Made by a program: the position numbers and the translations under genes. The notes under the pieces were generated by a model. It did no database searches, was not told where the DNA came from, and worked only from the letters and a program-made list of their open reading frames with translations. Positions 22,242-41,356 of a stretch of DNA of 43,476 nt are shown here, in pieces (positions within the stretch are counted from its first letter, which is position 1; each line of letters opens with the position of its first letter). The stretch is from Chryseobacterium gleum (lineage in GTDB: Bacteria > Bacteroidota > Bacteroidia > Flavobacteriales_D > Crocinitomicaceae): assembly GCA_945902775.1 (NCBI GenBank), contig CAMDMY010000017.1, positions 1-43,476 on the forward strand. The letters run 5' to 3'.

Positions 22242-22313
22242 GGCCCATTCGTCTAGTGGTTAGGACGCCAGGTTTTCATCCTGGTAACAGGAGTTCGATT
22301 CTCCTATGGGCTA
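22242..22313 (+). tRNA. tRNA-Glu (TTC), first copy
   Basis: A 72-base cloverleaf: acceptor GGCCCAT/ATGGGCT, anticodon arm CCAGG-TTTTCAT-CCTGG with anticodon TTC, and T arm AGGAG-TTCGATT-CTCCT. All stems pair well apart from a G-U at the acceptor end. The CCA tail is not encoded. Confidence 0.95.
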
Positions 22314-22334
22314 CGAAGTTTTAAATATATATTT

Positions 22335-22406
22335 GGCCCATTCGTCTAACGGTTAGGACATGCGGTTTTCATCCGTAAAATAGGAGTTCGATTCTCCTAT
22401 GGGCTA
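22335..22406 (+). tRNA. tRNA-Glu (TTC), second, diverged copy
   Basis: It has the same acceptor and T arms as the copy 21 bp upstream and the same TTTTCAT anticodon loop (anticodon TTC). The anticodon stem differs: TGCGG/CCGTA, which still pairs but includes a G-U. The D-loop is AACGGTT in place of AGTGGTT. It is foldable, so likely functional. CCA is not encoded. Confidence 0.9.
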
Positions 22407-22445
22407 CAAGAACTAAAGTTCTAAATTAAAATAAAAAGAAAGAAA

Positions 22446-40343: not shown

Positions 40344-40589
40344 CTAATTATTAATTTCTTTAAAAGAGTTTGCCCAATCTGATCGCATGTCTACGAATCG
40401 GGTAAGGCTGTTTTTCAATAAAGTTTCATTGACCATTTTAATTACATCCTCTACCCCATTTACATCTGTTTCACCAATTTTAAAAACTTGTTCATATTGA
40501 TCTAATTCAATTTTCACAATGTATTTAGAATTGTAATTAAACACTTGAATTTTATATCGAGCGTGTGGAATATCAGTAATTAATCTCAT
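40344..40589 (-). CDS. Small conserved Bacteroidetes protein (81 aa)
   Basis: Begins MRLITDIPHARYKIQVFNYN and contains KYIVKIELDQYEQVFKIGE, with alternating strands and a C-terminal helix. I believe it belongs to a conserved small Bacteroidetes family of unknown function. It heads the operon with the Skp-like lipoprotein (13 bp downstream) and has its own -7 element at 40605-40612. Confidence 0.75.
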   Translation of the reverse strand: MRLITDIPHARYKIQVFNYNSKYIVKIELDQYEQVFKIGETDVNGVEDVIKMVNETLLKNSLTRFVDMRSDWANSFKEINN

Positions 40590-40604
40590 TTCGACTATTT
40601 TTCA

Positions 40605-40612
40605 CAAAAGTA
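40605..40612 (-). promoter_or_regulatory. -7 element of the Skp/M50/Smr operon
   Basis: On the minus strand this reads TACTTTTG, matching TAnnTTTG, 15 bp before the ATG at 40589. It lies just beyond the predicted 3' end of the RNA at 40626-40853, so the operon has its own start. Confidence 0.6.
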
Positions 40613-40625
40613 ATAGAATAAATAT

Positions 40626-40853
40626 AAAAAAGACCCATGCAGTTGGGTTTTCTGAAGCCAGAAAACACGTTTAGGGTAACCGATAATCGCTGTAATCCAC
40701 TGTTTGGATAAAATCCTCTACTTTCAAAGAAAGTTGCGGCCCGCCATTAATTAACAAAGACTTCCCTTAGGGTCATAATTATTGCTTCAAGAATAATCTG
40801 CATGGGCTCTCTTGCGAGATAAGGTTACTGCACCAACTCTGTGGTTGAACCTC
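40626..40853 (-). ncRNA. Unidentified structured non-coding RNA
   Basis: A protein-free interval of about 230 bp with dense secondary structure. A 9 bp closing helix pairs CTGCATGGG (40798-40806, plus strand) with CCCATGCAG (40634-40642). Inside lie hairpins at 40647-40666 (8 bp perfect stem), 40695-40709, 40720-40734 and 40778-40797. Outside, on the 5' side, is TCTC-GCAA-GAGA (minus strand), a GNRA-loop hairpin at 40808-40819. On the minus strand a TAAATTTG -7 element (40859-40866) precedes it and a TTTTTT run (40631-40626) follows the closing helix, giving a defined start and end. A 6 bp match between 40676-40681 and 40823-40828 could form a pseudoknot. Size fits 6S RNA, but the branched fold does not obviously; tmRNA, RNase P and SRP motifs are absent. 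Confidence 0.7.
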
Positions 40854-40858
40854 TGATA

Positions 40859-40866
40859 CAAATTTA
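40859..40866 (-). promoter_or_regulatory. -7 element of the structured RNA
   Basis: On the minus strand this reads TAAATTTG, a full match to TAnnTTTG. A start 6-8 bases downstream would fall near 40851-40853. The -33 element is not clear. Confidence 0.6.
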
Positions 40867-40936
40867 ATGAAAAAGTTGGTTTCGAGTGCTTCAACCTACT
40901 TTTTAACTTACGTTAAATTATAAAATAATAAATGGG

Positions 40937-41356
40937 TTAATTTTCAATCGAATTAGCAACTGAAATTAATTTATCGGCAGTCTGGAAACCGCTCAACGAT
41001 TTTACTAGTCGGCCATCTCCATTGAGATATAATAATGTAGGATATCCTTGCACTCTGTAGTTATTAGCAATTTCTACTCCTTCTTCACTTTTTTCGGCAT
41101 CAATTTTTAGATTGATAAATTTATCGTTGTAAATTTCAGCTAATTTTGGGTCTTGAAAACTAGTCGCTGCCATTTTTTTACAAGGCCCGCACCAAGAAGT
41201 GTGTACATCTATAAAAATAATTTTACCCGTTTTAATTGATTCTTTCTTTGCTTCTTCAAAAGATAAACGTCTAAATTTAATACCTCCTGAATTTGAGCTT
41301 GTTATGAATCCAAAAAAGGAAAAAGAAATAATCAAAAATGAGATGAATACTTTCAT
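40937..41356 (-). CDS. Secreted thioredoxin-fold protein
   Basis: A 139 aa protein with N-terminal signal (MKVFISFLIISFSFFGFITS) and a thioredoxin fold with active site TSWCGPCKKM (about 53-62) and the cis-proline region GYPTLLYLNGDG. The CGPC motif points to a periplasmic disulfide reductase, of the DUF255/thioredoxin_7-like type (FEEAKKESIKTGKIIFIDVH). Its partner is unknown. Its upstream 67 bp is shared with the divergent menE-like gene. Confidence 0.88.
   Translation of the reverse strand: MKVFISFLIISFSFFGFITSSNSGGIKFRRLSFEEAKKESIKTGKIIFIDVHTSWCGPCKKMAATSFQDPKLAEIYNDKFINLKIDAEKSEEGVEIANNYRVQGYPTLLYLNGDGRLVKSLSGFQTADKLISVANSIEN

Follow-up and report, generated by a model that had tools for sequence, protein, structure and literature searches.

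The interval 40626-40866 of the window (the whole stretch of 43,476 nucleotides (nt) analysed, contig CAMDMY010000017.1 of assembly GCA_945902775.1) is, with a probability of about 0.85, the gene for a divergent Bacteroidota 6S-type RNA, too divergent to reach the Rfam cut-off. 6S RNAs are thought to hold back RNA polymerase. An earlier note, made from the sequence alone, had described the interval as an unidentified RNA, for which the main alternative was a divergent Bacteroidetes 6S RNA. This alternative was rightly named: the RNA is homologous to the Rfam family RF01693 (Bacteroidales-1), its structure is retained among relatives, its promoter element keeps its position and one copy was found. 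The word "unidentified" can be dropped, since a sub-threshold RF01693 match, an orthologue above the cut-off and a covariance model that joins the RNA to known loci give it a place.

The Rfam search proposed in the earlier note was run with cmscan and, at the gathering cut-off, returned only two tRNAs in the window. With a free threshold, RF01693 matched positions 40808-40627 of the minus strand with 33 bits (E 5.4e-4), and model positions 1-179 were aligned. The orthologue in a genome of the same genus (G095), located where DNA alignment also pairs that genome with the window, scored 69.5 bits and was the only one among 40 relatives to pass the RF01693 cut-off of 60 bits. In the DNA search of the family, 43 of 120 genomes matched at E ≤0.001; the genus contributes 11 of its 12, counting the window's own genome. 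The weakest matches are short, going down to 21 bases. Several matches in other genera start at query positions 72-74 (about window 40808), which is also where the RF01693 match starts. We built a covariance model, R1, on the core of 39 sequences, 35 belonging to the family and 4 to further families within the order. R1 gave 171.3 bits at 40628-40808, the window sequence itself being part of the model. Within the order, it matched 90 of the 199 genomes searched, in 37 of 62 genera. Each genome had one match except G005, where a second match covers that place on the other strand. Across a sample of the phylum, 10 of 247 genomes matched, own included, under stricter filters by which weak matches are lost.

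R1 also matched loci of the two Rfam families over their full length. The Bacteroidales loci L086, L088, L103, L061 and L130 scored 61-75 bits; the Parabacteroides distasonis locus among them, L061, gave 62.1 bits with R1 and 186.4 bits with RF01693. The loci L175 and L176 gave 85.9 and 83.2 bits from the closing stem to the U-run, and have sub-threshold matches (46.4 and 41.4 bits) to RF01685 (6S-Flavo), the cut-off of which is 85 bits. In G008, a weak RF01685 match of 31.8 bits is likewise covered full length by R1 with 84.5 bits. When R1 was applied to 14 sources, 12 from a sequence-pattern search that yields chance matches and 2 from the 6S-Flavo search, 9 matched with an E value under 1e-10, and for L077, L102, L111, L121 and L134 no match fell below E 0.4. 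Since R1 joins the window RNA, the Bacteroidales loci, L175 and L176, RF01693, RF01685 and this RNA look like one family, the 6S RNA of Bacteroidota, in which the RF01685 side is represented by loci below its cut-off. The two Rfam families thus probably describe parts of one RNA; the RF01685 model spans 108 positions, from bubble to bubble only. Wehner et al. (2014) reportedly extended the 6S genes of Flavobacteriia. In the accessible parts of the sources, Bacteroidales-1 and 6S-Flavo are listed as separate motifs by Weinberg et al. 2010 (PMC2864571), and Bacteroidales-1 RNA is present in the annotation of P. gingivalis (PMC5771137). RF01693 and RF01685 carry no clan in the Rfam output, though their members appear homologous.

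RF01685 and the generic 6S family RF00013 were rejected as direct homes of the RNA. RF01685 had no credible match in the own genome (the best, 22.7 bits, lies elsewhere than the RNA), and its cut-off was reached in none of 40 and none of 150 genomes of relatives. RF00013 had no match in the own genome at E up to 10; in the control it was above its cut-off in 4 of 14 named genomes.

The RNA in the window has a closing stem, a large central bubble, an apical stem and a length of about 200 nt, which is the 6S-class layout as defined in the accessible text of PMC8876501 for the RNAs of E. coli and B. subtilis (about 180-200 nt). It differs from RF00013 in having another conserved loop and covarying leader hairpins. 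The closing helix that the earlier note had drawn is present with 9 base pairs (bp), CCCAUGCAG (40806-40798) with CUGCAUGGG (40642-40634), or 10 bp including a flanking G-U. The RF01693 match to the core takes in AAUGGCGGGCC and GGAUUACA, which face each other across the most conserved internal loop, as well as the apical arm, which covaries in the window's family. In contrast, the bubble has GAAACUC/GAGUUUC in RF01693 and UUGAAGC/GCUUCAG in the window, and the Rfam structure leaves the closing stem and the bubble unpaired.

Folding of the single sequence was rejected as evidence for a structured RNA. The z values were -0.79 (plus strand, 40600-40880) and -0.89 (minus strand, 40626-40866), with no excess stability, and the case must therefore rest on relatives. 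We aligned 29 of the 35 family loci (alignment A2; the more divergent L031, L034, L037, L041, L047 and L048 were excluded), for which RNAalifold gave 42 pairs, 26 of them changed on both sides. Two bubble pairs were removed before counting. The resulting 40-pair structure was 94.9% paired (82.1% in shuffled alignments), with 160 doubly changed cells (51.0) and a covariation of 0.420 (0.188). The compensatory changes for which the earlier note had proposed a check amounted to 26 doubly changed pairs, against 18.3 in shuffles. Further pair types numbered 59 against 51.1, a value reached by 2 of 500 shuffles. The closing stem is nearly invariant in A2 (7 of 10 pairs constant), and its two-sided changes appear in alignment A3. 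These comparisons of relatives show that the structured RNA is real. A 6 bp pseudoknot suggested earlier, GUAACC (40828-40823) with GGUUAC (40681-40676), did not hold up: of the 35 family loci, 5 have it exactly, and 2 more form it with a G-U. R1 also matched the opposite strand weakly at L176:1473-1648 (minus) and G005:C2:240956-241127 (plus), with 21.4 and 33 bits; over its whole length, the RNA is roughly complementary to itself.

Across the central bubble, the 5' and 3' sides complement each other with lineage-specific letters: those given above in the window, GAAAAACU/AGUUUUUC in L039 and L040, UUAAACUU/AAGUUUAA in L175, and the RF01693 letters in the Bacteroidales loci L062, L069 and L108. 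This conserved pairing, P2, is absent from the Rfam structure. The MAFFT alignment is off by one base there, which prevents counting, and matched and mismatched lineages were compared instead. With representatives and lineages of our own choice and relatedness uncorrected, matched bubble sides gave -11.0 kcal/mol and mismatched sides -9.2 kcal/mol among 26 representatives (equalled in 3 of 20,000 permutations), and -11.3 and -8.4 kcal/mol among 12 lineages (15 of 20,000). For the longest bubble helix, 2 and 0 of 20,000 permutations were as good, respectively. The test scores any pairing across the bubble, and the best helix lies off the P2 register in L058, L066 and others. A hairpin predicted in the 3' side of the bubble, GUUUUCUG-GCUU-CAGAAAAC, overlaps the P2 strand; its predicted energy is -8.3 kcal/mol in the window and a weak -1.8 to -6.4 kcal/mol in the Bacteroidales loci. 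P2 and this hairpin are mutually exclusive and could plausibly form a release switch. For known 6S RNAs, including those of E. coli and B. subtilis, the accessible text of PMC8876501 describes a 3'-bubble hairpin and a bubble-collapse helix that take part in release.

The promoter element and the closing helix are separated by a 5' leader of about 46 nt (40854-40809, minus strand), which is kept in most of the family. Of the interval given in the earlier note, the conserved core is 40808-40627, and the leader falls outside the RF01693 model. The GNRA hairpin noted earlier is the second of two leader hairpins; its stem covaries and its loop differs among relatives. In A2, the three leader helices alone were 90.0% paired (67.7% shuffled), with 73 doubly changed cells (25.0) and a covariation of 0.640 (0.263), values reached in 0 of 500 shuffles. 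The measures that count pairs or types were weaker, being reached by 20 and 54 of 500 shuffles. When the leader was folded without an alignment, two hairpins were obtained in 33 of 35 family loci, namely all 29 of A2 (mean z -1.33) and 4 of the 6 excluded loci (mean z -1.29; not L031 and L041), the z values being modest. Ahead of the closing helix, a strict TAnnTTTG starts at a distance of 58-64 nt in 21 of the 35 family loci (0.003 expected per locus) and a relaxed -7 form in 27 of 35 (0.016 expected per locus), counts in which related species are not independent. Among 24 other Bacteroidota loci, 20 have the strict form within 75 nt of the closing helix, at 17-73 nt, and in L051 TAACTTTG begins 13 nt upstream. 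Since this distance varies, leader length varies, and the hairpin leader belongs to the window's family. Pairing of the leader with the 5' side of the bubble was rejected as a general trait: over 24 of 29 parsed pattern loci (L098, L102, L111, L114 and L121 were removed by eye), the median rank against shuffles was 0.455, and the pairing was strong only in L056, L061, L069, L097 and L104.

The signals of the RNA (-7 element, closing helix and U-run) all lie on the minus strand, and the -7 element just before the 5' end and the six Ts after the closing helix were found where the earlier note had placed them. The predicted start near 40854, about 5 nt past the -7 element, uses a spacing that we take to be usual. 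A terminator-like stem at 40648-40633 (minus strand) occurs once in the region, and 0.5 were expected in shuffles. The positions are collected in Table 1.

Table 1. Positions of the 6S-type RNA and associated signals in the window
Feature	Positions	Strand	Basis
-7 promoter element TAAATTTG, Bacteroidota type	40859..40866	-	sequence; position kept in family loci
Predicted transcript, about 229 nt	40626..40854	-	start predicted from -7 element
Leader hairpin 1 (40850-40853 with 40821-40824; inner 40842-40845 with 40832-40835)	40821..40853	-	covariation
Leader hairpin 2, CUC-GCAA-GAG, GNRA loop in the window	40809..40818	-	stem covaries
Candidate 6S-type core, stretch matched by RF01693	40627..40808	-	RF01693, 33 bits
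Closing stem P1, 5' strand	40798..40807	-	covariation alignments; sequence
5'-bubble strand UUGAAGC of bubble-crossing helix P2	40784..40790	-	predicted; lineage comparison
Apical arm	40674..40766	-	13 + 2 + 4 pairs in helices 5-7 of the 40-pair structure
AAUGGCGGGCC, one side of most conserved internal loop	40738..40748	-	RF01693 alignment; family alignment
GGAUUACA, opposite side of most conserved internal loop	40691..40698	-	RF01693 alignment; family alignment
3'-bubble hairpin, overlapping the P2 strand	40647..40666	-	predicted, -8.3 kcal/mol
3'-bubble strand GCUUCAG of P2	40652..40658	-	predicted; lineage comparison
Closing stem P1, 3' strand	40633..40642	-	covariation alignments; sequence
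Terminator U-run, six Ts	40626..40631	-	sequence
-7-like TACTTTTG ahead of downstream gene	40605..40612	-	sequence

These features suggest the following course, in which the action of the RNA is drawn by analogy with 6S RNA. Transcription would begin near 40854, run through a two-hairpin leader and then the core (closing stem, open central bubble and apical arm), and stop past the closing stem in the U-run at 40626. In the manner of an open promoter, the core would bind the RNA polymerase holoenzyme with the housekeeping sigma factor, which would lower transcription in slow growth. The polymerase may then copy a short product RNA (pRNA) from the bubble, by which the RNA would be released, with the P2 pairing and the overlapping 3'-bubble hairpin as putative states of release. 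It is possible but doubtful that the mature RNA keeps the leader as a third domain at its 5' end, which would bind something or time the release, and that throughout the Bacteroidota bubble pairing and 3'-bubble hairpin act as a release switch that neither Rfam model contains. E. coli 6S precursors are trimmed; may the leader be trimmed off in the same way?

The RNA lies 45 nt upstream of an 81-amino-acid open reading frame (ORF) on the same strand, which is where a 5' leader of the downstream OmpH-like operon, or an RNA regulating it in cis, would be. Such a role is very improbable in view of the terminator signal at the end of the RNA and the separate -7-like TACTTTTG, the promoter that the earlier note had seen ahead of the operon. 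Moreover, the downstream genes accompany the RNA in only 3 of 39 loci (L002, L003 and L004), and any tested neighbour of the window does so in 6 of 39, own included (flanks ≤1.5 kb). Since the neighbours stay with the RNA in close relatives only, the RNA is probably a stand-alone gene; as the earlier note had preferred, the locus points to an independent structured non-coding RNA with its own promoter and terminator signals, from which it is presumably transcribed.

Two further explanations concern what a homologous RNA would do. According to one, it is a small RNA of another function, misnamed through Rfam's '6S-Bacteroidales RNA suggested'. RF00013, as said, matches nothing in the own genome, and proteobacterial 6S RNA is not known to have the invariant AAUGGCGGGCC/GGAUUACA loop. 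This explanation is improbable, given the 6S-like layout and length, the R1 matches to loci with sub-threshold 6S-Flavo matches, and the 6S RNA with two pRNA classes reported from Bacteroides thetaiotaomicron in the accessible text of PMC7366714. The same pRNAs argue against an RNA that, like actinobacterial Ms1, binds the core enzyme and makes no pRNA. Ms1 has a central bubble and extra terminal hairpins according to the accessible text of PMC9130861, and the window RNA also has leader hairpins. However, Ms1 comes from another phylum and is about 300 nt long, the homology of the window RNA is to the RF01693/RF01685 group, and the leader is not general (L051). An Ms1-like mode is slightly less probable still than misnaming.

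Several points weigh against a 6S-type RNA. The window RNA is below the RF01693 cut-off (33.0 vs 60 bits), and the 40-pair structure was derived from the same alignment on which it is scored, which favours it over its slid versions (31.8-46.5% paired). A sensitive search of all 6 genomes of genus g22, in the same family, gave no credible match, and 19 g22 genomes (further to or overlapping the 6) are among those listed without an R1 match; may the 6S RNA have been lost or have strongly diverged there? No credible match was obtained in G111, a genome of the window's genus that is 76% complete. The identification of RF01693 with 6S RNA rests on the Rfam description line and taxonomy, and the accessible account of Bacteroides 6S RNA (PMC7366714) is not tied by name to RF01693. 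If the RNA is of the 6S type, a lineage without a called 6S RNA gains one, and the fuller structure (closing stem, bubble pairing and leader) can be used for a better model and for pRNA predictions.

The interval is free of genes, as stated earlier, between the ORFs 40344-40589 and 40937-41356, both on the minus strand. The latter is a thioredoxin-like gene. The former, of 81 amino acids, precedes an OmpH-like gene and DUF4924, and had no match in a Pfam search.

Two database labels were also noted. A metagenome-assembled genome (MAG) record labelled Saccharospirillaceae carries the RNA (L079, G268:C35:17684-17860); its place and score equal those of G141, from the window's order, and the label is therefore probably wrong. 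A MAG labelled Chryseobacterium gleum carries the orthologue (L087, G264:C290); its contig there, 3,532 bases long, matches G087, a member of the window's genus, and this label is doubtful. Elsewhere in the window, a tandem pair of tRNA-Glu(TTC) genes lies at 22242-22407 on the plus strand.
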